Shown here: one piece after another, positions 42,462-60,299 of the stretch
Numbering within the stretch: position 1 is the stretch's first letter
Layout: each line of letters opens with the position of its first letter
Assembly: GCF_018919395.1 (NCBI RefSeq)
Contig: NZ_JAHLME010000005.1
Location: 124,001-188,000 of the forward strand
DNA: 64,000 nucleotides
Origin: Geomonas azotofigens
Lineage (GTDB): Bacteria; Desulfobacterota; Desulfuromonadia; Geobacterales; Geobacteraceae
Reading direction: 5' to 3'
Made by a program: the position numbers and the translations under genes
The notes under the pieces: model-generated
What the model was told of the DNA's origin: nothing
The model's input: only the letters and a program-made list of their open reading frames with translations
Databases searched by the model: none

Positions 42462-45400
42462 CTACGGACGCTCGAGGGCGTTCCAAGCACCGCTGGTACG
42501 GTTGTAGCCAGCCAGGTACTTGAAGGACTCAGTGGTAGTTGCGTCAAGAGCGGTAGCTCCCTTGACATACTTGGCTGCGTCGTAAGCAACTGCGGTAGCA
42601 CCGACAGACATGTTGATGGTCTTGTCGTCGAGGAAGTCGATGCTGTCGTAGATCAGCCTGCGGGTGTAGGTACGAGCGTGGACATAAGCGGCCGGCTCGC
42701 GGTTGAGCAGGTTGATGTTGAAGCAAGCACCCATCAGCTTCTCAGCTTCAGCAGCGCTGAGTGCACCACTGCGGGTCCAGTCTTTCACCTGGGTGGTGGA
42801 GGAGTGCGGCTGGCCCGGGAACTTCGCATCGTCGAAGAAGTACGGGTTAGTAGTTGCATCGTAGGTGATGTTGTACTTGGTTTTCAGGGTTGCGATGGCC
42901 AGGGCCAGTGCATTCTGGAACGGTACAGCCTGCTCCTCAACGAAGAACTCTTTGTAGTTGGCTGCGGTGAGGGTGGTGGCGCCTTCAGCGGTGTGGCAGT
43001 TCACGCACACTTTCTCGAAGGCGTCTTTGCCGAGCTCGAGCTCGTGGTTGCCGTTTGCGTAGTGGCAGGTTGCGCACGGACCGTTGGTGTCGATGCCCAT
43101 TGCTGCGGTGATGCCGTGGTCGCCGATGATAGCGGAGGTACCCAGTTTGCGGTGGGTGGAGCTCAGCGAACCGCCGTCATCGGTGGAGGTAAGAGACTTA
43201 CCGTAGGTGCTGGTGCCGATCACGGTGGCCGGATCGATGAAGTTGGTGTAGCCAGCTTTCACGTACATGAGGCCAGCAGCAGCCATGTAGTGGGAGTTCT
43301 GGAAGCCGGTGTTGGTGAAGGTGTTGCCAGCGGTGGTCAGAGCTTTGATGTTGTCGCCGCCGACGCGGCCGCCGTGGCAGCCGAAGCAGACGGTGGACCC
43401 ACCGACGTTCGGGAAGTTGAAGCTTGCACCGTTGAAGGTGTAGTCAGCCGGGATGCCAGCGGTCGGAACGCGCAGTTCGCCGGTTTCAGCAGACTTGTGG
43501 CAGCCCCAGCAGTACAGTACTTCGTTCTGCGGAGACTTTTTGGCGGTTGCCCACTGGGTCAGGTGAGAGAAGTCGTTGTTTGCATACACGTAGCCAGCCG
43601 GGTTGTCCAGGAAGTTAGCGGAACCGGTAGCGGTGTGGCACTTCTCGCAAGCGCCGCGGCTAGCGACGTCGTCCCAGTCGTAGTGCTCCCAAGCCGGGCC
43701 GGAAGTGCCGGTGACGCCAGCAGCCATGACGGCGGCGTGGGTGGTGGTGTTCCTGGTGCGTGCTGCGTTGGCGGTGGTGAAGGCGGTGAACTTAGCAGCA
43801 AGCATCTTGCCTGCGTGACCGGAAGCAGCCCACTCGGTCTGTACGGTGCCGACGCCCTTGGTGGTGCTGACGCCGTCAGCCTTCTCGAGAGCGTTAGCCG
43901 AGTTGGTGTAGAAGTTGTGGCCGTGGCAGTCGGTGCAGGCGGTGTCTTTGTTGTAGCGTACTACGTAGCCCTCGATGGTGGTGCTGGCCAGGCCAACGCC
44001 GGTGGTCGGGAGGTCGTAGTGGGTGGAAGCGATGTTACGGTACCAATCTTTGTAGTGCTGCTGCATTGCTACGGTTGCCTGGCCGTTGACGGTGACGCCG
44101 GAAGCCATGATGTCGCCGTTAGCGTTGGTCAGGTTGTGGCAGGAGGTGCAGAGCTTGTACTCTTTGGAAGCGCCAGCCGGGGTGTCTTTCGGCTGCGGTG
44201 CCCAAGCTACGTCGCGGACGGTGCCGTGCTGATCGTGGCAAGCGGCGCAGGAGACGTTCTGGGAACCGTTGTAAGAGGTGCTGTACACGCCGGCCGGGTT
44301 CTGAGCGGTTGCCAGGAAGGCAACGTAGCCTTCAGAGGTGTGGCAGCGACCGCAGGTGCCGGAGTGGGTGGAGGTTTCCATGGCGTGCTTGCCGGTCTGC
44401 ACCAGAGCAGCCTTGGTAGCATGGCAGGAAGCGCAAGCCGGGGTCTCGACGTACTCGGCAGCGGCTGCTGCCTGTGCTGCGGTAACGGCGGTTGAAGCAG
44501 CCAGGGTGGCAGCTGCGGTACCGTTGAGGGAGCCGTCGTCGAGGTAGTCGATGGTGTCGTTCAGGATGGTACGTGCGAGGGTCGGGTTGTGTGCGAACAT
44601 CGCGCGATCCCAAACGGTGAGGAGCTGCCAGTTGTACCATGCGCCGTAAGCTTTCTTGGCGGTGGTGTCGTCAGCTGCAACGCCAGCAGCCTTGTTGAAG
44701 CGGCCGAAGCGGACGTTGGCACGCTCGGTCTCGAGCGGGGAAGAGGTGGTGCGCAGACCGTCCATCTTCGAGCGGATGAGTGCGTCGAGGACGGCGAGGC
44801 CAGCCTCGTACTCTTCTTTCTTCGCTTCAACGTCGGTTGCGCCGAACGGAGCAGCGTGGCAGGACTGGCATACTGCGCTATAGCCGGTCGGAGCCAAGGA
44901 GTGGGTGTCAGCGCTGCTGTGGTGGCAGCCAACACAGGGGCCCTGCTCTTCGTTTGCACCCATCTTGACTGCAGCGTGGCCGTTAGCACCAACATATTCG
45001 CCGCCATTGAAGTTGAATGCGCCTTTGCCAATGAAGCTCTGGCCCATGTTGGCAGCGTGCTGATAGTAGCTGGTGCCGATGGTGGTGTAGTTCTTGTTCA
45101 GAGCCTTAGCGTTATCGATGACGGCAACGAAGACGTCGTCGGTGCTACGGCCGGAGTGGCAGGGGATGCAGATCGAGGAGTTCTTCATGCCCGGGAAGGC
45201 AACCTGGATCTTGGTTTTGCCTGCAGCAACCTGGCCCTGTGCGCCGGTGCTGGTGCCAGCGGAGCTGAACAGTGCGAAGTAGCCCTGAGCAAGGGTCTGG
45301 CCGTTGCCAGCCGGGGTAGCGTCGATGCGCAGTGCGCCGGAATCGATGTTGCTGTGGCAGGAAACGCAGACAAGGACGTTGTTCGGCTGACCAGTGGTCG

Positions 45401-46928
45401 GCTTCAGGCGGGTTGCCAGAGCGGCATCCTGCTGGGTGAAGTTCACGAAACCGCCAGCGGTGTGGCAGCGGTCGCAGTTGCCGTTCTGACGGGTGCCGTT
45501 GTTGGTGCGTGCGGACCAGTCATAGTGAGCGAATGCGTTGAGCGGGTCGTTGGAGGTGGCGCCGTGGCCGCCCTTCGCGAAGCCCTTGATCACGGAGTTG
45601 GTAGCGTTGTGGCAGTCAGCGCAGACAGCGCCCTGGGTCACGTACTCGGTGACGGCGTCGCCAACGTTGTTGGCCTGAGCGATGAATTTACCGCTTACGT
45701 GCTCAGCAGTGACGGTACCAGCGATTGCGGTGCGGTTCAGGGAGTGGTTCTCCATGGTGTGGCACACAGAGCAATCATTCTTGTTGGCATTCTGATGGGT
45801 GTCGTAGCTGTTGGTAGCTTCCTTGATCGCGATGTGGCCGTGACACTTGGAGCAGTAGTACGCATCAACGGTACCTGCGCTTGCGTTCAGCACCTTGAGC
45901 GTAGCCGGATCAACGGTCTGTGTATTGACCGGAGTCGGCATAGCGCCATCGGTGTGGCAGCTAATGCAGGTGATCTGTGCGGCAACGTGCGGAGAAGCGG
46001 ACCACTTGTCGAACGCGGTGCTCGGCGACACGCCGGTGGTGGTGTTGTGGCAGCCGTTGCAAGCGGAATCCATGTAAGAGACGAGGTCGGCGGTCGCGGT
46101 GACCTGCACGGTGTCGGTCTGGCCAGCCATCGCCTCGGCGACCTGGAATACATATACACCGGCGACGGTCGGGGTGAAGGACGGCATCGCGGTGGTCCAG
46201 GAGCTGGTGTCGACGGTAGCCGGGCCGCTGACCTGGGTCCAGGTGACGGCGTCGCCGGCGGTTACGCTACCACGGATGGTGGAGGCGGTGCCGAGGCCGA
46301 TAACCTTGTCAGCACCTGCGGACACGGAGTAGGTCGCGTAGGTCGCGGTCACGGTCTGTGCAGCCTGGATGCCGCTCAGGGTGATCTTGACCGGCTTGTT
46401 GTACGGCAGGGTTACCGGGGTGCCGTAGGTCGCGTCGGTAAGGGTACCGGCGGAAACTGCGGTCAGTACGGAGGAACCGTTAGCCGGGCTGGTGCTGAAC
46501 TGCACGGTCCCGTTGTAGGAAACGTTCTGGGAAGCCGGGCTGATGCTACCCGCGCCGGACACTGCACCGTTGATGGTGTAGGTGTTGGCGGTGAAGCTCG
46601 CCTGAACGCTCTGCAGGGTACCACCGGTCTTGTCCATGGTGGTGGTGAAGAGCTGGTCGTTGCTGATGGTCTGGGTTACCGAGCCCTTCTTGACGAGGGT
46701 GATCTTGTAGCCCGGGTTGGCCTGGATGGTTACCGGAATAAGTGCGGAGGTGGTGAAGTTGTTGTAGGCAACGACGCCGGCAGCGGTCTGCCATGCTTTG
46801 TCGCGTACCTGGAGCTTACCACCCACGGTGTTCAGTTTGCTCTGCAGCTGCCAAGTGGTCGCCGCATACGAGATGCCTGCGGCGACTACTGCCATGCATC
46901 CTGCAGCAGCTATTGTCTTCTTGAACAT
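42462..46928 (-). CDS. secreted 20-heme c-type cytochrome
   Basis: The 1488-residue protein has a signal peptide (cleavage near SYAA, about residue 22). About 260 residues of beta-rich Ig/bacterial-surface-like domains come first (NGAVSGAGSISPASQNVSYNG resembles a BACON/PKD-type module). Twenty CXXCH motifs follow, the first CNGCH and the last CVNCH. Hemes 5-10 and 15-20 lie in parallel sequence blocks, indicating an internal duplication. It is probably exported to the cell surface and passes electrons to outside acceptors. A strong terminator follows it, and an imperfect hairpin separates it from the tetraheme gene upstream in the same direction. No known Omc name can be assigned from sequence alone. 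Confidence 0.9.
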   Translation of the reverse strand: MFKKTIAAAGCMAVVAAGISYAATTWQLQSKLNTVGGKLQVRDKAWQTAAGVVAYNNFTTSALIPVTIQANPGYKITLVKKGSVTQTISNDQLFTTTMDKTGGTLQSVQASFTANTYTINGAVSGAGSISPASQNVSYNGTVQFSTSPANGSSVLTAVSAGTLTDATYGTPVTLPYNKPVKITLSGIQAAQTVTATYATYSVSAGADKVIGLGTASTIRGSVTAGDAVTWTQVSGPATVDTSSWTTAMPSFTPTVAGVYVFQVAEAMAGQTDTVQVTATADLVSYMDSACNGCHNTTTGVSPSTAFDKWSASPHVAAQITCISCHTDGAMPTPVNTQTVDPATLKVLNASAGTVDAYYCSKCHGHIAIKEATNSYDTHQNANKNDCSVCHTMENHSLNRTAIAGTVTAEHVSGKFIAQANNVGDAVTEYVTQGAVCADCHNATNSVIKGFAKGGHGATSNDPLNAFAHYDWSARTNNGTRQNGNCDRCHTAGGFVNFTQQDAALATRLKPTTGQPNNVLVCVSCHSNIDSGALRIDATPAGNGQTLAQGYFALFSSAGTSTGAQGQVAAGKTKIQVAFPGMKNSSICIPCHSGRSTDDVFVAVIDNAKALNKNYTTIGTSYYQHAANMGQSFIGKGAFNFNGGEYVGANGHAAVKMGANEEQGPCVGCHHSSADTHSLAPTGYSAVCQSCHAAPFGATDVEAKKEEYEAGLAVLDALIRSKMDGLRTTSSPLETERANVRFGRFNKAAGVAADDTTAKKAYGAWYNWQLLTVWDRAMFAHNPTLARTILNDTIDYLDDGSLNGTAAATLAASTAVTAAQAAAAAEYVETPACASCHATKAALVQTGKHAMETSTHSGTCGRCHTSEGYVAFLATAQNPAGVYSTSYNGSQNVSCAACHDQHGTVRDVAWAPQPKDTPAGASKEYKLCTSCHNLTNANGDIMASGVTVNGQATVAMQQHYKDWYRNIASTHYDLPTTGVGLASTTIEGYVVRYNKDTACTDCHGHNFYTNSANALEKADGVSTTKGVGTVQTEWAASGHAGKMLAAKFTAFTTANAARTRNTTTHAAVMAAGVTGTSGPAWEHYDWDDVASRGACEKCHTATGSANFLDNPAGYVYANNDFSHLTQWATAKKSPQNEVLYCWGCHKSAETGELRVPTAGIPADYTFNGASFNFPNVGGSTVCFGCHGGRVGGDNIKALTTAGNTFTNTGFQNSHYMAAAGLMYVKAGYTNFIDPATVIGTSTYGKSLTSTDDGGSLSSTHRKLGTSAIIGDHGITAAMGIDTNGPCATCHYANGNHELELGKDAFEKVCVNCHTAEGATTLTAANYKEFFVEEQAVPFQNALALAIATLKTKYNITYDATTNPYFFDDAKFPGQPHSSTTQVKDWTRSGALSAAEAEKLMGACFNINLLNREPAAYVHARTYTRRLIYDSIDFLDDKTINMSVGATAVAYDAAKYVKGATALDATTTESFKYLAGYNRTSGAWNALERP

Positions 46929-46982
46929 GGGGGTCCCCTTTTAAAATTAAAAGTCTCGCTGTTTTCGAAAAGTGACTAAATA

Positions 46983-47009
46983 GGGGGAAGAGACTGGCGT
47001 CTCTCCCCC
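46983..47009 (-). terminator. hairpin between tetraheme and 20-heme cytochrome genes
   Basis: GGGGGAAGAGAC (46983-46994) faces GTCTCTCCCCC (46999-47009), an 11-12 base stem with one irregularity and a 4-base loop. On the - strand it is followed by TATTTAGT rather than a T-run, so it may attenuate rather than stop transcription between the two genes. Confidence 0.5.
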
Positions 47010-47017
47010 CAGGGACA

Positions 47018-47848
47018 TTACTTAACGTGGCAGGAGAGGCAGATCAGAGACTTGTTCTCTTTAGCGTAGAGGAAGTAGTTCGGGGTCAGGCCGTTGATGG
47101 TATCCTGGGTTGCGTTCTCTTTGTTGTGAACTTCGTGGCAGGTAGCGCAGGTCATGTAGGTACCCTGGTAGAGGGTGTCTTTGATCGGCTTGAAGACGGT
47201 GCCGTCGCCGACGGTGCCGCGGGTAACGGTGTTGTAGGTACCAGCCACGGTGCTCTCGGTGATGCCGGTAGCGAAGCCGAAGGTGGACGGAACGATTTCG
47301 CTAGCGCCGTTTGCGGTAGCGGAGCCGTTGCCGGCTGCTGCGTTACGAGCGGTTGCGATGGCGTTGTAGTCGAAGCCGATCGGGTGGGTGTTGCTCAGGT
47401 CGTTGGTCAGCTTGGCGCGGGCAGCGACGGTGGTGCTGCCAGCCTGCCACATGGTGCCGTTGTTAGCTGCGTCGCCGTGCTGGTCGATAGCGATGGCGCC
47501 GTCATGGCAGCTCATGCAGAGACGGGAAGGTCCGATCAGCGGGTTGACGATCACGGTACCAGCGGCATCAGCGTTAGCCGGGGTAGCCCAGGTGTAGCCG
47601 GTGTAGGTGGTGGGATCGACGAGGTTGTGGTTCCACAGCGGGTAGTTGTCGAGGCCGTCCTTCATGGCATGGTGAGGAGCGTGGCAGTACACGCAGACGC
47701 GGCCCATCTTGTCGGCGGTAGCCGGTGCGACCTTGGTCATGTCGTGCAGGGAGCCGTTGACACCGGTTGCGGCCGGCATACCGGCGAGAGCGGAACCTGC
47801 TGCAGCAAGACAGCCAACAGCGACAACACTTGCGATTACTTTTTTCAT
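47018..47848 (-). CDS. tetraheme c-type cytochrome (OmcE-like family?)
   Basis: The 276-residue protein has a signal peptide (cleavage near SALAG, about residue 22) and four CXXCH motifs: CVYCH, CMSCH, CATCH and CLSCH, the last at the very C-terminus. The pattern RVCVYCHAPHH, then PLWNHNL, LCMSCHDGAIA and LSNTHPIGF is shared with the first part of the 12-heme cytochrome at 48437. To my recollection this layout resembles the tetraheme OmcE family, whose members polymerise into extracellular nanowires; I cannot check it here. It is transcribed ahead of the 20-heme gene. Its upstream region holds a CRP/FNR-like palindrome. The ribosome site is AAGGAGAG. Confidence 0.85.
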   Translation of the reverse strand: MKKVIASVVAVGCLAAAGSALAGMPAATGVNGSLHDMTKVAPATADKMGRVCVYCHAPHHAMKDGLDNYPLWNHNLVDPTTYTGYTWATPANADAAGTVIVNPLIGPSRLCMSCHDGAIAIDQHGDAANNGTMWQAGSTTVAARAKLTNDLSNTHPIGFDYNAIATARNAAAGNGSATANGASEIVPSTFGFATGITESTVAGTYNTVTRGTVGDGTVFKPIKDTLYQGTYMTCATCHEVHNKENATQDTINGLTPNYFLYAKENKSLICLSCHVK

Positions 47849-47977
47849 TTCTTCTCTCCTTTTTTGTTTGTACTACCATTGAAATTTAGGACAGCGTTAC
47901 CCTCACTAGAGCAACATGCGTACCCGCTTTGCCAACTGACGCATTTTTTTCCTGACCCCGCCCGAGCCACTCCAAAA

Positions 47978-47993
47978 AGTGATCGAAATCACA
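47978..47993 (-). promoter_or_regulatory. CRP/FNR-family-like operator palindrome
   Basis: AGTGATCGAAATCACA has the TGTGA-N6-TCAC(A/T) layout recognised by CRP-type regulators; one outer base deviates. It lies 130 bases upstream of the tetraheme cytochrome start. No clear -10 box was found downstream of it, so its spacing to a promoter is unknown. Confidence 0.45.
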
Positions 47994-48436
47994 ACGGTTT
48001 TAATGGCGGGGGAAAATAAGGCGTAACCCATACTGCACGCCCGCTCGGCTTTCCGGCGCTCCGCCTTCCGGCGATTTCACGGACGTCCCCGTTGTGATTT
48101 AACCGGCCGGCGGCGCCAGACTTCACCCTTACCCCCCTCCCCACAACATGATATGAATGGCGCAATTGCGGCTGAAAGCCCCCAAGCCGGGAGCCAGCCT
48201 GCCAGCGCCGACGCCGTCAACCGGAGGCGCCGGTGGACGTTGGCCCGGCAGGACGGGCAGCCTCGCGCCAACGACAGGTAACTGATTTTGCGAGTAAAAT
48301 CGGGGAGTCCGCGTGGTGGCCGGTGGTTTCACCGGCTATTTGGCGTAGCAAAACGTGAAGTGACCGGAAGTGCGGAAACGCGAAACGGCCGGACCAGAGG
48401 GTCCAGCCGTTGGCGGTGTGGCGTGGGGAGAGGGAA
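47994..48436. other. intergenic region with several hairpins
   Basis: No credible gene is visible in this gap between the end of the six-gene cytochrome operon and the tetraheme promoter region. It contains GATTTTG-CGAG-TAAAATC (about 48283-48300), GCCGGTG-GTTT-CACCGGC (48319-48336) and ACGGCCGGACC-AGAG-GGTCCAGCCGT (48385-48410, one mismatch). The last lies 26 bases past the 12-heme cytochrome stop and may be its terminator, although the T-tract is poor. The density of hairpins allows for a small RNA. Confidence 0.4.
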
Positions 48437-50269
48437 CTAGCGGGTCAGCAGTTTGGGACGGAACAGTTTCGGCAGCGGCGTCCCCGTGGCGGAGTACGTC
48501 TCGATGTTGCCGGCGACGGCATGGCAGTTCACGGTGCAGCTCCCCTGCCCGGCGGCGCTGGAGACGTAGACCGGGGAGGTGACGATGGCACCGGCGGCGT
48601 AGTTCTTGTCCAGGTTGATGAGGTGCGCGTTGTTGGTCGGGGTCGCCTGCATCCTCCAGGAGACGCCGTGCGGGTCGTGGCAGACGTAACAGGGAATCAT
48701 CCGCTCGCGCACGTGCTTGTTGTGTTCGTTGACCCCGGCGTTGGAGAACGCGCTCCCGCTGTCCATGACGTAGCCGTCGAAGTGGCAACGAAAGCAAAGC
48801 GCGTACTGGCTGAAGTTGTAGGGCGTCCGGGTATCGGCGACCCGGGGCATGAAGTACTGCGCCAAGAGGATATGCTCGTACTGCGAACCGTGCGGCCCGT
48901 TGGGTCCGGTCCCCCCCGCCTTGCGGCTCTGGCTGGAACCATGGCAGTCGCTGCAGTAGATCCGGGTCATGGTGGCCTGGTAGGACGCCAGCAGGCTGGC
49001 CCCGGTGCCACGCCGGTCTGCGGCGACCGGGTGGAAGGACGGGTTGCGCAGATCGAACCGGTAGGCCTGGTTCGCCTCGATGATGACGCGGTTGGCCTGG
49101 GTCTGGGTGACGCTCGCGAACCGGAAGGCGTTGTCGCCGGCATGGCAGCGGTAGCAGACATCGTATTCGTTGGCGGCGACGTTGCCCGCGTTGTCGATTC
49201 TCACCCCCCGGAGCCTGCCGTCCACCTGCGGCGGGGACGACATGGGCGCGTTGGCGGAGTTCACCTGGTGGGCGTTGTGGCAGTCCACGCACTGGACGTG
49301 GTACTTCTCCGCAGGGAGCGTTTCCTTCTCGTCGTGCACCGGGTCGCTCACCAGGTCATCCACGGGGTGACGGTACAGCCCGGCTCCCACCAGCTGCTTT
49401 ATGTTCTGGGAAGCGGGTTCGACGCCGTTGTGGCAGTTGCCAAGACAGGCGTCCGATTGCTTTACGCCGCGCAGCAGGCGCACCGCCCAGGGAGCGTTGT
49501 GCGTGGCGTGGCACCCGAGACAGCCCGTGGCCAGGGAGGCGATCTGGGTGTTGTTGTGGCTCGAGGTCCCCCAGTTGGTCGGCTGGTGGCACGCGGTGCA
49601 CAAGGGGGACCCCGCGACGTAATCGGGGCGGTTTGGGTCGCCGTTGTTGAGAACCAGGAAGTTGCCGTACTGGTTGTCGTGCGGATCGTGGCAGGTGGTG
49701 CACTCCAGGTTGGCCCCCTGCTCGAGCCGCATCTCCTGCGGCAGGGACTGCGGTGAAGCCAGCTGGCTCTTCACGGCGAGGGCCGGTGTGTAGGCGAAGG
49801 AGATCGGGTGGTCGTCGGAGAGGTCGGTACTGAGGTTCGGGTTGGTGAACCCCTGTTCCCTCGGGATGGCGGTCCCCCCCACGTTTTGACTCCCGGCGTA
49901 GCTGCTGAGCGCGATGGTGCCGTCATGGCAACTAAGGCAGAGCTTGGAGGCCCCGGTGGGCCGATCCGGTTTCGGGGTCGCCGCCAGCGTCGAGGAACGG
50001 TAGGGAATGTACTCCGTCGTCTCGGCGGAGAGGGGGCGGCTCCAGAGGGGGGTGCCGGTGGTGGCGTTGTGCGGGACGTGGCAGAACACGCAGACCCTCT
50101 GCTCCCCGGCTACGGTGACGCCGGGTTGGCCGGACGCCCTGCCGCGCCCGCCGTAGATGGAGAGGTTGTGCGGCGAATCGAAGACGCTCAGCTTGGCGTG
50201 CGAGGCGGTCCCCGAAAGCAAAAGGAGCGCGGTGCAGAACAAGGTGATCCTTAGCAGCATGGCCTTCAT
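48437..50269 (-). CDS. 12-heme c-type cytochrome
   Basis: The 610-residue protein has a signal peptide (cleavage near ASHAK, about residue 25) and twelve heme motifs. Ten are CXXCH (CVFCH, CLSCH, CTTCH, CTACH, CLGCH, CVDCH, CYRCH, CSDCH, CFRCH, CYVCH) and two are CX3CH (CLGNCH in the middle and CTVNCH near the C-terminus). No lipobox is seen, so it is periplasmic or secreted. Its first four hemes follow the same pattern as the tetraheme gene at 47018. The ATG directly abuts the stop of the NHL lipoprotein gene upstream, so it is the last gene of the operon. With the beta-barrel at 51349 it could form an electron conduit. Confidence 0.9.
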   Translation of the reverse strand: MKAMLLRITLFCTALLLLSGTASHAKLSVFDSPHNLSIYGGRGRASGQPGVTVAGEQRVCVFCHVPHNATTGTPLWSRPLSAETTEYIPYRSSTLAATPKPDRPTGASKLCLSCHDGTIALSSYAGSQNVGGTAIPREQGFTNPNLSTDLSDDHPISFAYTPALAVKSQLASPQSLPQEMRLEQGANLECTTCHDPHDNQYGNFLVLNNGDPNRPDYVAGSPLCTACHQPTNWGTSSHNNTQIASLATGCLGCHATHNAPWAVRLLRGVKQSDACLGNCHNGVEPASQNIKQLVGAGLYRHPVDDLVSDPVHDEKETLPAEKYHVQCVDCHNAHQVNSANAPMSSPPQVDGRLRGVRIDNAGNVAANEYDVCYRCHAGDNAFRFASVTQTQANRVIIEANQAYRFDLRNPSFHPVAADRRGTGASLLASYQATMTRIYCSDCHGSSQSRKAGGTGPNGPHGSQYEHILLAQYFMPRVADTRTPYNFSQYALCFRCHFDGYVMDSGSAFSNAGVNEHNKHVRERMIPCYVCHDPHGVSWRMQATPTNNAHLINLDKNYAAGAIVTSPVYVSSAAGQGSCTVNCHAVAGNIETYSATGTPLPKLFRPKLLTR

Positions 50270-51349
50270 CTATTTGCCCCCGAGATCGTCCGGCTGCGCC
50301 AGCCTGTTTTCATCGTCGTAGTCATCATCGTCCTCTTCAATGGGAAGCAACCGCAGCATCTGAACCCGCCGGTTGTAGGTGTCGGTCACGAACAGCAGAT
50401 CCCCGGAGATCGAGATGCCCGACGGCATCCAGAACTGGCCGTTGGCCGTGCCGGTGCCGCCGATGCCGAAGAGGAAGTGGCCGCTGTCGTTGAAGACCTT
50501 CACCATGTCCGCCATGGCGTCGCACAGGAAGATCCTCCCCAGCGAGTCGACGGCGACACCCTTGGGCTTGCTCAGCTCGGCGGTGGAATCTCCCATCTCC
50601 CCCAACTCGGCGACGGGAACCCCTTCCGGGGTGAAGATGCGGACCTTGTAGTTGAGCGGGTCCGTGACGAAGACCTGCCCCTTCGCGTCGACCGCCAGGT
50701 CCGTGGGGTGGTTGAGCAGCTGCTGCTCCGGGTTGGCCGTGCTGAAGCGGATTTTCGGCCGCCCTTTCAAGTCGACACCGATGATATCGTTGGCCCCGGT
50801 CTCGGTGACGTAGAGCAGGTCGTTGCTCCTGTTGTAAGCGATGCCGGTGGGGCGATCGATGCCCCGCATGAAGGTGGTGAGGGTCTCGCTGGCGAGGTCG
50901 TAACGGAAGACGGCGTCGGAGACGGAATCGGTGATGTAGAGCCCGGTCCCGGCATCGCGCGCCAGGCCGATGGGGGAGCGCAGCGTAGCGTCCGGCGCGC
51001 TGCGGATCACGGTATAGACCGAGCGCTTGGTGTCCATGACATGCACCACCCCGGCGCCGGCATCGGCGATGAAGAGACGTCCGTCGTCGTAGAGCACCCC
51101 GTAAGGTTTCACAATGTGCTGGGTGCTGGCGCCGGTCACCAGCTCGAGCGCCCGCTTCCAGAACCCTTTCGCTATGCCGGCGTCCTCGGGGGATACCACG
51201 CTCTTCACCCATTCCACCCGCGGCGGCAGCGGCTTTTCCGGCCACTGCAGGCTCACCCCCTTGTGCCCCTGCAGAAACGGCGTGGAAGGGGCGCAGCCGG
51301 CAACGACCCAAAGGACTCCCAACACCAGCCAAACGCGTAGCACCCGCAT
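50270..51349 (-). CDS. NHL-repeat lipoprotein
   Basis: This 359-residue protein has a lipoprotein signal ending VVAGC (Cys about residue 19) and then a beta-propeller of NHL repeats: KPYGVLYDDGRLFIADAGAG, SPIGLARDAGTGLYITDS, HPTDLAVDAKGQVFVTDPLN, KPKGVAVDSLGRIFLCDAMA and MPSGISISGDLLFVTDTYN. The acidic C-terminus (EEDDDDYDDENR) is unusual. NHL proteins are often found beside multiheme cytochromes in Geobacter; their role there may be structural or in partner binding, which is not established. It overlaps the beta-barrel gene by one base and abuts the 12-heme gene. Confidence 0.85.
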   Translation of the reverse strand: MRVLRVWLVLGVLWVVAGCAPSTPFLQGHKGVSLQWPEKPLPPRVEWVKSVVSPEDAGIAKGFWKRALELVTGASTQHIVKPYGVLYDDGRLFIADAGAGVVHVMDTKRSVYTVIRSAPDATLRSPIGLARDAGTGLYITDSVSDAVFRYDLASETLTTFMRGIDRPTGIAYNRSNDLLYVTETGANDIIGVDLKGRPKIRFSTANPEQQLLNHPTDLAVDAKGQVFVTDPLNYKVRIFTPEGVPVAELGEMGDSTAELSKPKGVAVDSLGRIFLCDAMADMVKVFNDSGHFLFGIGGTGTANGQFWMPSGISISGDLLFVTDTYNRRVQMLRLLPIEEDDDDYDDENRLAQPDDLGGK

Positions 51350-53310
51350 CAGAAGTACCTCGTTATCTTAAGGTTCACGTTGTTGTCCTGGGTGTTCCCC
51401 CCGGAGGAGAAACGGTAGACGGTGCCGGCGGCGAGGGAAACGACCAGGCTGTTGTAGGTACCGTCAAGCCCCACCCGCAGGCCGGCGAGATCGCTGGTGA
51501 CGCCGTCGGTACGGCTGTCGCTGGCGTTGGCGGACAAGAGCAGGCGAAACCTCTGCAGGAGGATCTGGCTGTAGGTAACCGAGGCCGTGATCACGTTCTG
51601 GTTGTACCCCTGGCTGGTGGCCGTCGCGTCATGAACGCTGTAGATGTCACGGGCGCCGAGCTTGAAATGGCCGCTGGCGCCATAGTCGTCTTCGTAGCTG
51701 CACGTGGCGGCGACGTGGGAGGAGCTCTCCTGGGTGCCGGATATGGTGCCGTATTCGAGTGCGAAGATGCTGGTCTCGTAGTGGGCCTCGGCGCTGAACA
51801 GGGTGGTCGTGGTACTGGTCAGGGCGCTGTTGGTGGCTTCGCCGCCGATCTTGCGCTGGTCGGTGGTGCCGTAGGTGCCGGAGAGGATATAGCGCCCGCC
51901 CAGCAGGGAGAGAACGGCCTGGTGGTTTTGCGTATCGGTCGAGAAGTCGACGTTGGGATTCACCGCGACCTCGTAGGTGATGTACAGGGTCGTTCCCGGG
52001 GCGATGGCCCCGTTCACCACCACCTCGATCTTCCCGGTATCGGTGTCGACGCGGTAGTCGAAATCGGGGCGGTAGATCACCTCAGGGTTGAGGCTCTTCA
52101 CCGTGACGACGGGCTGCAGTTTCCCGGCGAGGTTCACGGCGATCAACTCCCCCTGCTGCACCACGGTGTGCGGCTCGTCGCGGGCCGAAAGCAGGGTGTC
52201 CAAGAAGTTTTGATGGGTGACCGACTTGGTGGCGAGGCTCCTCAGTTTCAACTGGCCTCCCAGCGGCAGCAGCTTCACATAGTCCACGGAGGCGCTGCCG
52301 TTGACGACGGTCTGGTCCCCCCCGAGGGCCCAGGTCTGCCCGTACGAGCCGCTGAAATTGGTGGTAACGCTCTGGTACAGGCGGTGACTAAGGGAGCCGG
52401 TCACCACGTTGGTCTTGACCACCTGCTTGTCGCTTTGAAGATCGACGCTGGAGCTGTAGTTGTAGTCATCGGAGAGCGTGACGGCGAGAGCCTTGCCGAG
52501 CCGACCGGAGAAGTTGGCGGTGAGCGCGCCGACCCGTTGCGGCAGGCTCCCCGCGGAGGACACGGAGGTCGAGTCGGAAAGGGAGGCCTTGGTGGCGAGG
52601 CGGTAACGCTTCTCGACGTCGAAATCGAAGGTGTTGTTGAGCAGCAGCGAGTAGTTGCGGCTCTCCTTGTCTCCGGAGCTTGAGTTATCGAAGCTGAACA
52701 TGGCCGCGCCGAGCCAGGACCTGCCGTTGTGGGACACGTTGATGCTGCCGCTGTTGGAATCGGTGGTGGAATCGGTACTGAGGCCGGTGCTGGTCACGGT
52801 GGAGTTGGTGAAAAACATGAGCACCGGGAAGTTCTGATGCAGCAACGAGGCGGTCAGTTTGTTGGAGGTGCGTTCCAGGCTGTAGCTCGGCATGTACCCG
52901 TTGGAGACGGTCGAAGTGCTCCGGGTGGTCGAGAGCTGCATCGGATGGTAGCTCAACTGGAAGGCGTTGCCGACGACGTTGTAGTCGTAGTCGAGCACCG
53001 AGGTCTTGCTGTTGCCCAGCCGCTGCTGGTAGGTGACCCCGCCGGCGACATCCACGAGGAGCAGGTCGGGATTCCAGACGGCCACCTCCGTGGAGAACCC
53101 GTACCCTTCCCTCAGGTCGTGGGACGCGGACGTGGTCCTGGTGTTGACGTGGGCGGTGTAGTCATAGGAGACGCTGGCTGACTGCACCACCCCCCCGAAC
53201 ATCAACAGGCTCGGGTGCACGACCACCTCCTCGTTGATAGCCTCCGCGAAGGCATCCGGGCAGTTGAAGGTGGCGGCGATGAGCCCCAGCAGGGCTAATA
53301 TTCTGCGCAT
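51349..53310 (-). CDS. outer-membrane beta-barrel protein (porin of a cytochrome conduit)
   Basis: This 653-residue protein has a signal peptide (cleavage near DAFAEA, about residue 23) and a sequence dominated by alternating polar/hydrophobic strands rich in Ser, Thr, Tyr and Asn. It ends NVNLKITRYF, with the terminal Phe typical of proteins inserted by the Bam machinery. It has no heme motifs. A region near residues 380-450 (VVTVKSLNPEVIYRPDFDYR) looks like a plug or periplasmic domain. Lying between cytochrome and NHL genes, it is the best candidate for the porin of a porin-cytochrome conduit; its sequence does not obviously match OmbB. It is followed seven bases downstream of the 5-heme gene. 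Confidence 0.75.
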   Translation of the reverse strand: MRRILALLGLIAATFNCPDAFAEAINEEVVVHPSLLMFGGVVQSASVSYDYTAHVNTRTTSASHDLREGYGFSTEVAVWNPDLLLVDVAGGVTYQQRLGNSKTSVLDYDYNVVGNAFQLSYHPMQLSTTRSTSTVSNGYMPSYSLERTSNKLTASLLHQNFPVLMFFTNSTVTSTGLSTDSTTDSNSGSINVSHNGRSWLGAAMFSFDNSSSGDKESRNYSLLLNNTFDFDVEKRYRLATKASLSDSTSVSSAGSLPQRVGALTANFSGRLGKALAVTLSDDYNYSSSVDLQSDKQVVKTNVVTGSLSHRLYQSVTTNFSGSYGQTWALGGDQTVVNGSASVDYVKLLPLGGQLKLRSLATKSVTHQNFLDTLLSARDEPHTVVQQGELIAVNLAGKLQPVVTVKSLNPEVIYRPDFDYRVDTDTGKIEVVVNGAIAPGTTLYITYEVAVNPNVDFSTDTQNHQAVLSLLGGRYILSGTYGTTDQRKIGGEATNSALTSTTTTLFSAEAHYETSIFALEYGTISGTQESSSHVAATCSYEDDYGASGHFKLGARDIYSVHDATATSQGYNQNVITASVTYSQILLQRFRLLLSANASDSRTDGVTSDLAGLRVGLDGTYNSLVVSLAAGTVYRFSSGGNTQDNNVNLKITRYF

Positions 53311-53317
53311 ACCTCGG

Positions 53318-53896
53318 CTACCTCAGGAAATATTTCGCGTCGCCATCGTGCGGGTCATGGCAATCGGTGCAGGCCATGCCGGACTCGGTGACCTTCTTGT
53401 GCATGGACTCTGCGATACGCCTCTCCTTGTGGCAGACGGCGCAGAGGTCCTTCTTCTCCACCTTGAGCAGCGCGGGCTGTGCCGAGGAGTGGGGGTCGTG
53501 GCAATCAAGGCAGGCCCCGACGGAAACCGGGCCGTGGACGAAATACCTCTTGATGATATTGGGATGGCAGACGAAGCAGATCTGGTCGCGCGGCTTGATG
53601 AGCCCCGAGTCCTTGGACTTGTCGTGGCAGTCGTTGCAGCGCTTCTCCATGTAGGGGGGGTGCCCCTTGACCACCACCTTCTTCACCTGCGCCGCGGTGG
53701 CCGGCGCGTTGGCCTTGGCGGCCTCTTCGATCACCTTGGCCTCGTGGTACTCCTCGCACAGCTGCTCGGTAGGGGGCAGACTGGGAACGCCGTCAAAGAT
53801 CGTGGAGGTGACCTTGTGCACTGTGACGGGATTACAGCTGCACAGAAGGCCTAGGCAGAGTATGACCTTCAACAGATTGTGGACGACCTTTGACAT
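53318..53896 (-). CDS. pentaheme c-type cytochrome lipoprotein
   Basis: The 192-residue protein has an N-terminal signal with a lipobox-like LLCSC (Cys about residue 19) and five CXXCH motifs (CNDCH, CFVCH, CLDCH, CAVCH, CTDCH) with accompanying His residues (HGPVSVGACLDCHDPH) in the style of class III/cytochrome c3-like modules. The start at 53896 follows GGAG; the frame extends upstream to 53974 but that extension has no signal character. A lipid anchor would place it on the outer membrane. It is followed by the beta-barrel gene after seven bases, suggesting the two proteins work together. Confidence 0.83.
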   Translation of the reverse strand: MSKVVHNLLKVILCLGLLCSCNPVTVHKVTSTIFDGVPSLPPTEQLCEEYHEAKVIEEAAKANAPATAAQVKKVVVKGHPPYMEKRCNDCHDKSKDSGLIKPRDQICFVCHPNIIKRYFVHGPVSVGACLDCHDPHSSAQPALLKVEKKDLCAVCHKERRIAESMHKKVTESGMACTDCHDPHDGDAKYFLR

Positions 53897-53995
53897 GCAG
53901 GCTCCAGATAACAGATACGCGGCAAACAGCGGCGTAATTAAAAATGACAACTCCAGCCCAGTGGCACGTGGCAATCGGCGAGGGTAGCGGTGACG

Positions 53996-55210
53996 CTACT
54001 CCTGGGGCGACTGCTGACGCTGCTGCTGTTGCAGAATCTTCTTGCGCTTTTCGAGGATCTCCGCGTCTTCCTTGGCCCGCTGCTTGGCCCGCTCCTCCCA
54101 CCCTTCCATCTCGCCCAGGCCATAGACCGCGACCGAGTGGTTGATGGCGGAGGAGTACTGGTTGGTGACGAAGATCACCTCCCGCAGCTTGAAGCCGGGC
54201 GCGGCGAACTTCTGGAAGTAGTCGAGGTTCTTCTTGCTGACCACGATCCCCGCAGGGAGATTGGTGGAACCGGCCATCAGGCCGGGCTGGCCGAAATAGC
54301 CAAGGATGCGATGCTTCTCGTTGAAGACCTGCACCACCTGGTAGCCGGCGTCAACGACGAAAATCTGGCCGTCGTCATCGACCGCGATACCGCGGGGGCG
54401 GGTGAATTCGCCGGGGGAATCGCCGATCCTGCCGAACACGGACAGCATGTTGCCGTCACGGTCGTACTCCTTGATGCTGCCGTTGCCGACGTTGACGATG
54501 TGCACCGCCCCCTTGGAGTCCACGGTGAGCCCGTTGGGGAGCGCCAGGTTCTTGCTCCGGTCGGCACTCTCCCCGATGACGCTCACCACCTCGTCGGTTT
54601 TGCGGTTGATCACGAACACTTTGCTCAGGCGGTTGTCCATGATGTACAGGTCGTCCTTGTAGATCGCCACGCCCGACAGGCTCACGTGGTCGAAGGTCTT
54701 CCCGTAGGACTTCACGTATTTCCCGGCCTGGTTGTAGACGGCGACATCCTTGCGGCCGGTGTCGGCGACGTACACGAGCCCCTCGTCGTCAACGGCGATG
54801 CTGACCGGTTTCCTCAACTTCCCGGACCCGCGCTCCTCGACCAGGTTCTTGATGATCTTGTTCACGAAATCAACCACGACGACCTGGCTCGCGCCGATGT
54901 CGCAAACGTACAGCTTGCCGTTGTATTCCGCGATCCCGTAGGGTTTGGCGAAGCGCGTCACCGTCTCGGTCCCCCCCACCAGGAGCTTGGAGAGACTGCT
55001 CTGATTGGAGCCGAAGTCGGTGGAGCTGCTGATCCCGGTCAGGTACTGCACGTGGGGCTCCTCAGGGGGGGGAGGGAAAAATACCGGTCCCACCGAGGCT
55101 GTAGTTCCCGCGCACCCCGCAAGCAGGGCAACCAGCAAGGTCATGAGCATGAGGTCTTTGAGCCGCCTGGAAGTAAATGCCGTCACGGCGCCACCAAATC
55201 GTCCATTCAT
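53996..55210 (-). CDS. NHL-repeat lipoprotein
   Basis: The 404-residue protein has a positively charged N-terminus, a hydrophobic helix and lipobox LLAGC (about residue 33). Five or six NHL-type repeats follow: KPYGIAEYNGKLYVCDIGAS, KPVSIAVDDEGLVYVADTGR, LSGVAIYKDDLYIMDNRL, LPNGLTVDSKGAVHIVNVGN and RPRGIAVDDDGQIFVVDAGY. The C-terminus is a charged helix ending in Gln-rich KKILQQQQRQQSPQE. It is similar in plan to the second NHL lipoprotein at 50270, but the tail differs. It follows the 15-heme gene after 32 bases in the same operon. Confidence 0.85.
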   Translation of the reverse strand: MNGRFGGAVTAFTSRRLKDLMLMTLLVALLAGCAGTTASVGPVFFPPPPEEPHVQYLTGISSSTDFGSNQSSLSKLLVGGTETVTRFAKPYGIAEYNGKLYVCDIGASQVVVVDFVNKIIKNLVEERGSGKLRKPVSIAVDDEGLVYVADTGRKDVAVYNQAGKYVKSYGKTFDHVSLSGVAIYKDDLYIMDNRLSKVFVINRKTDEVVSVIGESADRSKNLALPNGLTVDSKGAVHIVNVGNGSIKEYDRDGNMLSVFGRIGDSPGEFTRPRGIAVDDDGQIFVVDAGYQVVQVFNEKHRILGYFGQPGLMAGSTNLPAGIVVSKKNLDYFQKFAAPGFKLREVIFVTNQYSSAINHSVAVYGLGEMEGWEERAKQRAKEDAEILEKRKKILQQQQRQQSPQE

Positions 55211-55242
55211 TTAGGTGCTCCTTCTGAAAATAAGTACCGTCG

Positions 55243-56571
55243 CTAGTTGTAGACTTCGGCCTTGACCCTGTCGTACTTGAATTTCCTGTGACAGCCGGGC
55301 GCGCAGCTCCCGCCGGTGGAGGTGAGCGTGAAGTTCAGGGGGATCTTCCAGGCCCCGAACTGCGACCCGTCCTTGTTGATGAGCTTCTCGCCGTCGCTTG
55401 CGTGCGCCTCGTGACAGATGCGGCAGGTGCGCCCCTTGCGCGCCACCACGTGCACGTAGTGCAGGTTGCGGTTGCCGTTTCTGAACTTGGTGTAGATGGT
55501 GGTCTCGGGGAACCGGAGCAGGTTCCTCTCGTGGCACCTGAGGCAGGCTTCGTAGGCCCCGTCCTTGTAGGGGAGGTACAGGTCGTCCGGGTAGTTCCCC
55601 TTGAGCAGCCGGAAATAGTCGGAACCGTGCGGGTCGTGGCAGGCCCGGCAATCCCCCTTCTTCAGCGGGCCGTGCAGGAACGGTTTCCCCTCGATCTGCT
55701 TCTTGATGTTCTTAAGCGGCGGGGTCCCGAGCGTGTCGGTGCCGTGGCAACCAAGGCAGACCGTCATCTGGTCGGCGGAGAGCATACCCTTGGCCTTGCC
55801 GAAGTGCGAGGAGTGGCAGTTGGAGCAGCCACCCTCCTGGAGCACCGGCTTGTGCGGCACCTTGGCCGAGGCGACCACTTTGCCGATGCTCTTGTGACAG
55901 CCGGTGCAAAGGTCCGGGAGCTTGTTCTTGACGAACATCTTGTAGGGGGAGCCGTGCGCGTCGTGGCACGCGGTACAGGCGTCCTTGGCCACCGGCGGGT
56001 GCACCACCGCGGCCTGGTTCAACTGCTTGGCGAAGTCGGCGTGGCAGGAAAGGCAGATGTCACGGACCTTTCCCTTCATGAGCCCCTTCTCCACGGAGTC
56101 GTGCGGATCGTGGCAGGTGCCGCAGGAGCCGACCGCCGCCGGCCCGTGCATGTACTTCTCCTTGAAGGGCTTGGCGTCGTGGCAGTTCAGGCAGAGGGGG
56201 GAGCGGTCCTCGCCGACGTCGAGCAGGAAGCGCTGCTGCGTGCCGTGAGGCTTGTGGCAGCCGGTGCACTCCCCTTCCTTGACCGGCGCGTGCACCAACC
56301 TCTTCTTCCCAATCCCGTCATGGCAGTCCTTGCAAAGGTCGGCGCCCTTGGCGCTGAGGTCGAAAGTCTTCACCCCCTTCACGGGATGCTCCTTCCCCTT
56401 TTGGATATGGCAGGGGGAGCAGTCACCGTCTTTCACGGGGGCGTGGGGATACTTGACCGCGGCGAGGGGGGCGTGACATTCCGTTGTCGTGCAGGATGCA
56501 GCGTAAGCCGGGCTGGTACAGAAAAGGGCGAGACCGGCCAGTGCAGTTGACGCTAGAGACAACACTTTCAT
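55243..56571 (-). CDS. 15-heme c-type cytochrome
   Basis: The 442-residue protein has a signal peptide (cleavage near AYAAS, about residue 24) and fifteen heme attachment sites. Thirteen are CXXCH; the first is CX4CH (CTTTECH) and the last CX3CH (CAPGCH). The repeats follow a pattern of about 45 residues: HAPVKEGECTGCHKPHG, then LCLNCHD, HGPAAVGSCGTCHDPHD and so on, as in cytochrome families with paired hemes. It heads the six-gene operon and has no lipobox. It is probably the periplasmic member that feeds electrons into the conduit; this is inferred from position. Confidence 0.9.
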   Translation of the reverse strand: MKVLSLASTALAGLALFCTSPAYAASCTTTECHAPLAAVKYPHAPVKDGDCSPCHIQKGKEHPVKGVKTFDLSAKGADLCKDCHDGIGKKRLVHAPVKEGECTGCHKPHGTQQRFLLDVGEDRSPLCLNCHDAKPFKEKYMHGPAAVGSCGTCHDPHDSVEKGLMKGKVRDICLSCHADFAKQLNQAAVVHPPVAKDACTACHDAHGSPYKMFVKNKLPDLCTGCHKSIGKVVASAKVPHKPVLQEGGCSNCHSSHFGKAKGMLSADQMTVCLGCHGTDTLGTPPLKNIKKQIEGKPFLHGPLKKGDCRACHDPHGSDYFRLLKGNYPDDLYLPYKDGAYEACLRCHERNLLRFPETTIYTKFRNGNRNLHYVHVVARKGRTCRICHEAHASDGEKLINKDGSQFGAWKIPLNFTLTSTGGSCAPGCHRKFKYDRVKAEVYN

Positions 56572-56849: not shown

Positions 56850-57479
56850 TTACCCCTCGGGGTAGTCGGAAAGGGCGAGGAAGGTCTCCTTCAGCTCGAA
56901 GGAGAAGATGGAGAACATCCTTTCGGCCAGCCGGGTGGTGAGCACCGGCGGGAACAGCGGCACGGCCAGGCGGTAGATGAGATCGAGCATGCCGTCGTGG
57001 GGGTTTTCCTCCAGGAACAGGGCGCCGTACTGCAAAACGGGCGCGAACAGGAGCGCCTCCTCCATGACCGCGTCGTCCTCGCTGAAGTAGGGAAGGATCA
57101 TCTCCAACGAGAAGCAAAGCCCGGAGCCGCCGGCGTCCTCGGCGATGCTCAAGAGAAGCTCGTCCTGCGGCGAGCCGTACTCAAGCGCCTCCGGCGAGAC
57201 GCTCCCCGCCGGGAGCACCATCACCTTGCCGTGCACCGGGTCGATGCCGTAGGGCGCGCCGCGGCCGGCCAGGAAGCGCTCCAGCTGCTGGTATCCCTTG
57301 GTCTGCAGTCTCCCCATGCCGCGGTAGAATGCGGGACGGAACTGGTCCCGGTTGGCGATCAGTTCCTCGAGCGGGACGAACTCCTGCTCGGCCGCCGCGG
57401 GCCTCGCGCTCCTGATCTCCGCGTTGTTAACCACGAGCCTGAGGTGCGACCTCTTGCGCTCGTCCTTGTCCTTGCTCAC
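56850..57479 (-). CDS. unrecognised soluble protein
   Basis: The 209-residue protein has no signal peptide and no membrane segment. Its N-terminus is basic and highly charged (SKDKDERKRSHLRLV), the middle includes FYRGMGRLQTKGYQQLERFL, and the C-terminal half is hydrophobic and helical. I do not recognise a family. A GTG start at 57479 is favoured: AGGGGG lies six bases upstream, and the longer frame back to 57539 would run through a good promoter (57510-57539). It stands between the cytochrome operon and the metal module, transcribed in the same direction as both. Confidence 0.65.
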   Translation of the reverse strand: MSKDKDERKRSHLRLVVNNAEIRSARPAAAEQEFVPLEELIANRDQFRPAFYRGMGRLQTKGYQQLERFLAGRGAPYGIDPVHGKVMVLPAGSVSPEALEYGSPQDELLLSIAEDAGGSGLCFSLEMILPYFSEDDAVMEEALLFAPVLQYGALFLEENPHDGMLDLIYRLAVPLFPPVLTTRLAERMFSIFSFELKETFLALSDYPEG

Positions 57480-57664: not shown

Positions 57665-58138
57665 CTAGAAGAAGCGGGCGCCGGTCTTCAGGTCGTTGAC
57701 CGAGATGGTCACCTTGCTCCCGTCGATCTTGGCGGGAAGGTGAGAGGGGTTGCAGCCGCCGGCCGAAGCCGCGCCGATCCGGTTGATGGCGAACTTCTGG
57801 TTGCAGTTCAGGCAGTTCATCTTGTCACCCGCCTGCTCGTACCCCTTCTTCTCGCGGTAGCAGACGTCGCAGGCGTCGAAGGCGACGTGAAGCTGGCCGT
57901 CGTTCCCCTTCACGATGAAGAAGTTGATCTCCTTGCCGGCGTCGGTGAACTTGTAGTAGTGCGCCTTGCCGTCGCTCACCTTGTCGACGGGGATGGTGAC
58001 GCTGCCGCCGGCCGGTTTCACCTTCTCGTATTTCCCCATGCCGGGAAGGCTGAAGGCGAAGGCCACGGTCGCCATGGCCACCAGGGCGATGGCGACCAGG
58101 AGGAAGGTTTTGCATGCTTTCGTGCTCGACTGAACCAT
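57665..58138 (-). CDS. DUF2318 domain protein, probable metal-binding
   Basis: The 157-residue protein has one N-terminal membrane segment (about residues 10-32, anchor or signal peptide). It then has the DUF2318 pattern: a beta domain (YYKFTDAGKEINFFIVKG), FDACDVCYREKKGY, MNCLNCNQKFAI and AGGCNPSHLP. The cysteines (CxxC, CxxC and GGC) probably bind a metal ion. DUF2318 proteins often accompany iron or copper transport genes. It follows an HMA-domain protein after 73 bases in the same direction and precedes a terminator, so the two are likely co-transcribed. The start at 58138 has AAGGAG seven bases upstream. Confidence 0.83.
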   Translation of the reverse strand: MVQSSTKACKTFLLVAIALVAMATVAFAFSLPGMGKYEKVKPAGGSVTIPVDKVSDGKAHYYKFTDAGKEINFFIVKGNDGQLHVAFDACDVCYREKKGYEQAGDKMNCLNCNQKFAINRIGAASAGGCNPSHLPAKIDGSKVTISVNDLKTGARFF

Positions 58139-58211
58139 GTGGTGCTCCTTTTCGGCCTGACGGGCAGGCTGTTGCTGGATCGCGCGGACGCGATGAAGAG
58201 AGTTGCTGGAG

Positions 58212-58622
58212 TTACTGGGCGCCGCCGCAGCCGCGCGAGCCGCAGCAGCCGCCGGGGGCCGCCTTGCCGCCGACGTCACGGCCGACCACGCTGCGAAACT
58301 GCTGCGGGGTGATCACCTGGGCGACCTGGGAGTGGAAACCGCTCTTTTGCACCGCCTGGGCCAGCCGGTCGGGCGCGGTCTGCTTCGAGTCGAACCCGGC
58401 AACCACCACCCCCGACTCCAGGTCCACCTCGGTGGCCGCCACCCCCCTTTGGGACTGCAGGGCCTCGGTGATCTTCTTGACGCAGCTGCCGCAGGTCATC
58501 CCGGCGGTGCGCAGCACCACGACCCGGTCGGCGGTCGCCCCGACCCGGACGTAAAAGGCGAAAACGGCGAGGACGGCGACGACGGCGAGGACCAGGGTGG
58601 TATTGAGGATCTTGTTGCGCAT
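58212..58622 (-). CDS. membrane-anchored heavy-metal-associated (HMA) domain protein
   Basis: The 136-residue protein has an N-terminal membrane segment (about residues 7-25), then an HMA domain with the metal-binding loop GMTCGSCVKK and the ferredoxin-like fold pattern GVAATEVDLESGVVVAGFD, and a Cys/Gly-rich end (APGGCCGSRGCGGAQ). This resembles MerP/CopZ-type metallochaperones, here tethered to the membrane. Copper(I) or mercury(II) are the usual ligands; which applies is unknown. It heads the operon with DUF2318, and a sigma-54-like promoter lies 66 bases upstream of its start. Confidence 0.83.
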   Translation of the reverse strand: MRNKILNTTLVLAVVAVLAVFAFYVRVGATADRVVVLRTAGMTCGSCVKKITEALQSQRGVAATEVDLESGVVVAGFDSKQTAPDRLAQAVQKSGFHSQVAQVITPQQFRSVVGRDVGGKAAPGGCCGSRGCGGAQ

Positions 58623-58687
58623 GGGGGCTCCCGATCGGGCGCGGCGGGCGCGGCGTGCGCCCGGGCGGCCCGGACGCTCCACAAAGT

Positions 58688-58703
58688 TACAAGGAGCGTG
58701 CCA
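58688..58703 (-). promoter_or_regulatory. candidate sigma-54 promoter of the HMA/DUF2318 operon
   Basis: On the - strand the sequence TGGCACGCTCCTTGTA matches the -24 element exactly (TGGCACG) and the -12 element except for one base (TTGTA instead of TTGCA), with GG and GT separated by 10 bases. It lies about 66 bases upstream of the ATG at 58622. Confidence 0.5.
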
Positions 58704-58818
58704 CGGCGTAGCCAGCGCCCTAACCACCATGAATCATAATCGTTCGTGCCGTCGGTGGTACCGGGGCCGCCCCGTCACTGTGGAATATCCGGCAGGCGCA
58801 GTAGGATTTTCCACACTC

Positions 58819-59928: not shown

Positions 59929-59929
59929 G

Positions 59930-60127
59930 CTACTCCCCCTCCCATCCGATGCAGGACACCGGGCAAAGCTCCACCGCCCGCGTTTGGATCACGTCCTCGT
60001 CGGCGCCGGCCGCGTCGTAGCATTCCGACTTGCCGTGCGCGTCGAAGCGGAACACCTGCGGACAGTTGGCCACGCAGATGCCGCAGCTGATGCATTGTTC
60101 CTTGTCCACCCAGGGTATTCTCGCCAC
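59930..60127 (-). CDS. single-cluster [4Fe-4S] ferredoxin
   Basis: The 65-residue protein has the motif CISCGICVANCPQVF and a second cysteine block ELCPVSCIGW near the C-terminus, the pattern of small [4Fe-4S] ferredoxins. The GTG start at 60127 follows GGGGGAG; the longer frame to 60265 has no ribosome site and would include most of the intergenic region. It is encoded directly before the histidine kinase (one base apart), so both are translated from one message. It may act as an electron carrier or, with the kinase, in redox sensing; the latter is conjecture. Confidence 0.85.
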   Translation of the reverse strand: MARIPWVDKEQCISCGICVANCPQVFRFDAHGKSECYDAAGADEDVIQTRAVELCPVSCIGWEGE

Positions 60128-60234
60128 CGCTCCCCCTTCTCCACTCGTGATCGCCCCGGCCGGATGCCGGGACCATTGGCCACTATAGCGCAGATGCTCG
60201 CCAAGTTCCCAATGAAAAATGGCCGATGCGGAAC

Positions 60235-60262: not shown

Positions 60263-60299
60263 CATTAGATTATTTTAAACACCGAACAGGGGGGTCGCC

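Follow-up and report, generated by a model that had tools for sequence, protein, structure and literature searches.

This study addressed the question of what is built by a cluster of multiheme cytochrome genes that, in the probable soil iron-reducing bacterium Geomonas azotofigens, is interleaved with genes for an outer-membrane beta-barrel and two NHL beta-propeller lipoproteins. The window, i.e., the whole stretch of 64,000 nucleotides that was analysed (NZ_JAHLME010000005.1, positions 124,001 to 188,000; the contig is called C14 hereafter), holds six of these genes on the minus strand, designated A to F. Our reading, held with modest confidence, is that the cluster codes for an Mtr-like conduit of porin and cytochromes, and that this conduit forms the base of an OmcE-type nanowire in the outer membrane. 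The operon described in the first-pass annotation is real: the open reading frames of the window bore out the order cytochrome, NHL lipoprotein, cytochrome, barrel, NHL lipoprotein, cytochrome; motif counts gave the noted 15, 5, and 12 hemes for A, C, and F, respectively; and the spacings (32 bases for A-B, 99 for B-C, 7 for C-D, a 1-base overlap for D-E, and 0 for E-F) were confirmed, the value of 99 presupposing that C starts at the ATG at 53896. The extent of six genes held in part, since A to F are all present but the conserved unit runs on downstream of F with a further gene, G, which is separated from F by 588 bases in the window.

The first-pass annotation had proposed a search for this gene order in the Geobacterales, and the order was largely kept there. 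The barrel was found at 50 places (51 rows, two of which are pieces of one gene), and the 40 stretches fetched hold 37 of them. A-(G)-B-C-D was kept in 36 of the 37 fetched loci, the exception (L061) being cut at a contig end; a chance neighbourhood of the genes was therefore ruled out. With filtered gene calls, B-C-D-E-F was present in 30/37 loci, and an unfiltered recheck of the six loci that lacked E and the one that lacked F revealed E in all seven and hence in 37/37, although in L070 only a fragment is present where the contig ends. F is present in 35/37 loci, L070 being cut and F being absent from L053, whose fetched stretch lacks both F and G. The position of G is more variable: it lies at most six genes from D in 26/37 loci and further off in L060, L066, and L071, it stands between A and B in seven loci, and it was not seen in eight of the 37 fetched stretches, seven of which are cut by contig ends, where G could lie. 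At the 13 remaining barrel places, an A-type protein lies within 4 kb, as judged from coordinates alone.

The cluster is patchy, since D was found in 41 of the 141 genomes of the order, which represent 14 of 29 genera; within its own genus, 12 of 19 listed genomes have it. A-type proteins (E 1e-60 or better) were found in 52 of the 141 genomes. A second copy of the cluster is present in the same genome and on the same contig (L032, at about 57-66 kb of C14), with G between A and B. For A, B, C, D, and F, the window proteins score higher against a same-type copy of another genome (L035, L038) than against this second copy, consistent with block-wise inheritance of the unit. Downstream of the second copy, a 7-heme protein of 1222 aa is encoded.

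Concerning the conduit itself, A (55243..56571, minus strand), with 13 CXXCH, one CX3CH, and one CX4CH site, is an MtrA-like and probably periplasmic cytochrome. Its profile matched chain A of 6r2q with an E value of 5e-23, as expected of the MtrA-type cytochrome of an Mtr-type conduit, and its score against the curated model TIGR03508 (125 bits) is below the cut-off of 192. By its entry title, 6r2q is an Mtr complex; the PDB table labels its chain A cystathionine beta-synthase, and we take this chain to be MtrA. All 15 heme sites of A are invariant in an alignment of 29 A proteins, as are all 12 of F in an alignment of 26 F proteins; therefore, the unusual CX3CH and CX4CH sites of both proteins are likely to be real heme sites. 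C (53318..53896, minus strand; five CXXCH) occurs in 37/37 fetched barrel loci and is a probable lipoprotein, called by eye from LLCSC. The simple lipobox pattern used for the lipoprotein calls of B and E finds no match in C, and its matches in A, G, and H are not believed.

D (51349..53310, minus strand) is predicted to be an outer-membrane beta-barrel, and its AlphaFold2 model (pLDDT 86.7, pTM 0.61) has about 28 membrane strands by our own count from the DSSP string. MtrB has 26 strands according to the available text of PMC12133095, and by this strand count, the predicted structure gives no sign of a barrel unable to hold a cytochrome, which the first-pass annotation had named as one point against a conduit. 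The best structural match of D was MtrB (Z 18.4, rmsd 9.0 A, 443 aligned), with the pilus ushers PapC and FimD (Z 17.2) and porins close behind; in Foldseek, MtrB ranked 31st, yet it had the highest TM-scores among the 50 matches listed. In its predicted model, D is a wide outer-membrane barrel of the kind that an Mtr-type conduit contains. In sequence, D has no Pfam family, MtrB_PioB (PF11854) included, and no match in the PDB at E 10; PF11854 had no match in the genome, and the same model matched in one of 14 control genomes. Between strands 17 and 18 of the model, a small beta domain is inserted (residues 373-449; 51964..52194, minus strand), which would be extracellular if the N-terminus of D is periplasmic. 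This domain is kept, by eye, across 36 aligned barrels, and residues 376-461 gave a weak match, below its cut-off, to the phage tail-tube model NF052337. The conduit-type reading of the first-pass annotation stands as far as the MtrA-like A, the wide barrel, and the probable lipoprotein cytochrome are concerned; what it missed is the link to OmcE nanowires through G and the N-terminus of F.

The small margin of MtrB over the ushers counts against a conduit base and leads to the main rival explanation, according to which the barrel and the propellers would be a secretion or assembly machine that exports G, F, or the large cytochrome H (42462..46928, minus strand; 1488 aa, 20 CXXCH), with the electrons crossing elsewhere. 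We consider this unlikely, although it has to be taken seriously: the fold of D is close to that of PapC and FimD, the parts list of the cluster resembles that of the osc loci, where an export role has been suggested for OscE, OscF, OscG, and OscD with OmcS, and a PPIase gene lies near the NHL, 4-heme, and 8-heme genes of L178. However, D has two constant partners, the MtrA-like A (36/37) and C (37/37), and a pure pore would need neither. Moreover, none of the ten PF00639 PPIase matches in the genome falls in the window cluster (C14:166-181 kb), and nothing among A-H corresponds to the two extra lipoproteins of osc. The cluster may conduct electrons, export the nanowire, or do both.

The link with nanowires is provided by G and F. 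G (47018..47848, minus strand) is a tetraheme cytochrome that matches OmcE (7tfs) with an E value of 1e-14 and 9yuq, an entry with 16 chains for a putative multiheme cytochrome, with an E value of 6e-13. F (48437..50269, minus strand; 10 CXXCH and two CX3CH) consists of an OmcE-like tetraheme module (residues 1-235; 49565..50269, minus strand), recognised by its 7tfs match and candidate ligand histidines, and an 8-heme part; its residues 7-229 match OmcE more strongly than G does (E 9e-20). Across 84 aligned sequences (the OmcE fragment with 15 tetrahemes of OmcE-type loci, 33 G, and 35 N-termini of F; G and F of the window were each entered twice), four CXXCH and four distal histidines were kept in 94 to 100% per group. 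Similarity to OmcE, four CXXCH, and four distal histidines thus place both G and the N-terminus of F in the OmcE family, and G is a candidate nanowire subunit. The eight conserved candidate ligand histidines are just sufficient for the ligation of four hemes; in OmcE filaments, as described in the accessible parts of PMC9473688 and PMC12954529, one heme is ligated by a histidine of the neighbouring subunit. G has three further histidines, which are partly conserved in G alone and absent from OmcE; this counts against the nanowire reading.

For its C-terminal part, F has matches to stand-alone 8-heme proteins (L178, E 8e-28; L173, 2.5e-27; L180, 7e-26), and in these three loci, the 8-heme gene adjoins a separate OmcE-like gene, after an NHL gene, which represents a split form of F. 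Since the structure model of F failed (pLDDT 39), its OmcE fold is proposed from sequence.

The two propellers, B (53996..55210, minus strand; LAGC, with an inner ATG that is perhaps the true start) and E (50270..51349, minus strand; VAGC), are fitted far better by the NHL repeat model than by enzyme models. Both exceed the Pfam cut-off of SGL (gluconolactonase-like) and E also that of Arylesterase; such matches of enzyme models to propellers of this kind are, in our judgement, common through general likeness. An NHL gene was found within two genes of 21/21 OmcE-like tetraheme genes in 20 stretches, which were picked from a longer match list and are mostly the best OmcE-like matches outside window-type clusters; 29 of the 327 called genes in these stretches are NHL genes. 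Proteins with NHL propellers therefore seem to accompany OmcE-like cytochromes generally. A weaker NHL match, inside a protein of about 900 aa, was obtained in L177 and L179, where the OmcE-like gene adjoins this protein and two giant cytochromes with 24+3 and 16-18+8-9 heme motifs.

These data bear on a second rival explanation, an ordinary surface conduit with structural propellers and no nanowire, in which G and F would be monomeric surface cytochromes. A, C, and D are conduit-like, and the polymerisation of G is a prediction; nevertheless, the OmcE-like G, the OmcE module in F with its candidate ligand set, and the NHL genes near every OmcE-like gene of the 20 stretches, also away from a D-type barrel, argue against it, and we regard it as improbable. 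Least of all do we expect a cytochrome system dedicated to a single substrate or to the uptake of electrons, in which F, H, or a propeller would be the terminal enzyme: the protein at the H position varies strongly between loci, the SGL and Arylesterase cut-offs are exceeded, and Uet, of like composition, is counted among electron-uptake pathways in the available text of PMC10734462, but the NHL model fits B and E far better, and in family-model searches, no enzyme family was above its cut-off in the cytochromes of the cluster.

Returning to the conduit as the base of an OmcE-type nanowire, the analysis itself provides the gene order, the protein families, the conservation of heme sites and histidines, the split and joined forms of F, and the barrel model; from these we infer the locations and contacts of the proteins, the electron path, the filament formation by G, and the role of the propellers as follows. 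Periplasmic carriers would deliver electrons to the 15-heme A, which would sit within or beneath the wide barrel D; the electrons would then move on through the surface lipoprotein cytochrome C to F. Via its built-in OmcE module, F would act as an adaptor or first subunit for the stacking of G, which would proceed through a histidine ligand shared between neighbours, as in OmcE filaments, while the NHL propeller lipoproteins B and E would keep the assembly in place at the membrane or cap it. Points against this reading are the distance of 588 bases between F and G, the fetched stretches in which G was not seen, the rmsd of 9 A and the Foldseek rank of MtrB, and the lack of a sequence relation between D and the barrel-like protein of OmcE-type loci. 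More tentatively, and as a possibility rather than an expectation, F may be a built-in conduit-wire junction, in which an OmcE subunit with an 8-heme adaptor nucleates and anchors the nanowire on the Mtr-like pore and the propellers form a collar. If true, such a junction would supply a missing element of cytochrome nanowires, the point at which they are anchored and electrons enter, and it would be common to Geobacterales through Planctomycetota and Marinimicrobia. In several phyla, the gene order and the joined gene F connect an OmcE-type nanowire module with a barrel and a cytochrome of the conduit type, and they provide a short list of proteins, F foremost, for testing the nanowire-conduit question. 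The closest printed idea is the proposal, in the accessible part of PMC10553843, that every filament is paired with a porin-cytochrome conduit of its own, which favours the base reading.

The exact window cluster was not found in our searches of the open-access literature, and it is most likely a variant, so far undescribed, among nanowire-linked porin-cytochrome clusters. The osc cluster, reportedly named by Shen et al. in 2025, resembles it in combining a filament cytochrome, a barrel-like protein, a propeller, an NHL protein, and large cytochromes in one locus. The first-pass annotation was right that propellers are present, but they do not set the cluster apart as it had supposed, since the combination of barrel-like protein, propeller, and filament cytochrome has already been described for osc and, by composition, for Uet. 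Osc-type loci have the hexaheme OmcS, 26- and 16-heme cytochromes, a PPIase, and two further lipoproteins, whereas the window cluster has the OmcE-like G and F, the 15-heme A, the 5-heme C, and two NHL proteins; D and the osc barrel aligned with an hhalign probability of 61 over 138 columns (osc gene naming follows PMC13194489 in part). In L182, L183, L184, and L186, an OmcS homologue (6ef8, E 2e-99) and its neighbours marked an osc-type locus, and the genome itself has one at about 81-99 kb of C14 (L191, L192) with three OmcS-like genes. These are the only three OmcS-like matches in the genome, all at 82-99 kb of C14 and none in the window cluster. The identity of the window cluster with osc was rejected, as it has no OmcS-type hexaheme and no PF00639 PPIase and the osc-type locus lies separately. 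Three nanowire-type clusters thus lie on one contig, namely L032, a hexaheme of which has no OmcS match, the osc-type locus, and the window cluster (42462-56571).

The OmcE-type loci share with the window cluster an A-like 9-11 heme cytochrome (14/15), one or more NHL proteins (15/15), and OmcE, and all 15 encode a protein of 737-806 aa that is barrel-like by eye; this shared make-up speaks for the nanowire-base reading. They differ in that an 8-heme cytochrome replaces C, the F fusion is lacking, and the barrel-like protein is unlike D. Homology between the latter two was rejected for lack of any sequence relation (probability 4.9%), and a search of the own genome with the OmcE-locus barrel-like protein, which carries little weight, gave no match.

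To our knowledge, the OmbB-OmaB-OmcB and Ext conduits contain no propellers. By their description in the available portion of PMC12307469, they are outer-membrane conduit gene clusters, and in this they are like the window cluster. OetABI, as far as described in the accessible text of PMC10553843, comprises a periplasmic cytochrome, a porin, and a cytochrome lipoprotein, often with filament cytochromes, to which the window cluster is similar in composition, although the filament cytochromes of OetABI are of the OmcS, OmcX, and Apc2a types. In comparison with MtrCAB, A resembles MtrA by profile and D resembles MtrB in fold, whereas D lacks PF11854, no MtrC relative was assigned, and the window cluster adds propellers and OmcE-like parts. 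Uet likewise has a barrel, UetC, the NHL units UetHI, a tetraheme cytochrome, and the undecaheme cytochrome UetJ, but the description available in PMC10734462 lists a PPIase and three triheme cytochromes besides.

Beyond Desulfobacterota, a search covering the best 80 of 393 relatives of A revealed B-C-D-E-F with A nearby in L144 and L149 (Phycisphaerae) and in L135 (Marinimicrobia), and also in L130 and L150, the last with one gene between D and E and with A on the other strand. Many Nitrospirae loci among these 80 have A without B-F; therefore, A serves other systems too. Apart from the five loci just named, L116-L151 have a 15-heme protein of the A type but not the complete B-F set, and in several of them an 8-heme cytochrome and a protein of 335-370 aa are encoded nearby; such A-only loci are perhaps another system using the same cytochrome.

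At the downstream end of the cluster, large cytochromes of varying size occupy the H position in many relatives, and it is uncertain whether H belongs to the conserved unit; H had no match among PDB sequences at E 0.01. Promoter scans (1 and 0 promoter-like sites vs. 0.3 expected) and terminator scans (2 and 0 vs. 2.0 and 0.9 expected) led nowhere, and a terminator-like stem between G and H (46983-47010) belongs to a class of sites no commoner than in shuffles. The idea that cytochrome-c biogenesis genes (ResB/CcsA) always precede A was dropped, as the genes upstream of A in 16 loci are, by eye, of other kinds; ResB was located in the OmcE-type locus L165 and, in L149, downstream of F. In the window, A is preceded by a gene at 56850-57476 for a 208 aa protein with no Pfam family, and a gene of similar length, a likeness of length only, precedes A in many relatives. 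Further upstream on the minus strand (57665-60265), an FtrD-like protein, an HMA-domain protein, a histidine kinase, and a ferredoxin are encoded.
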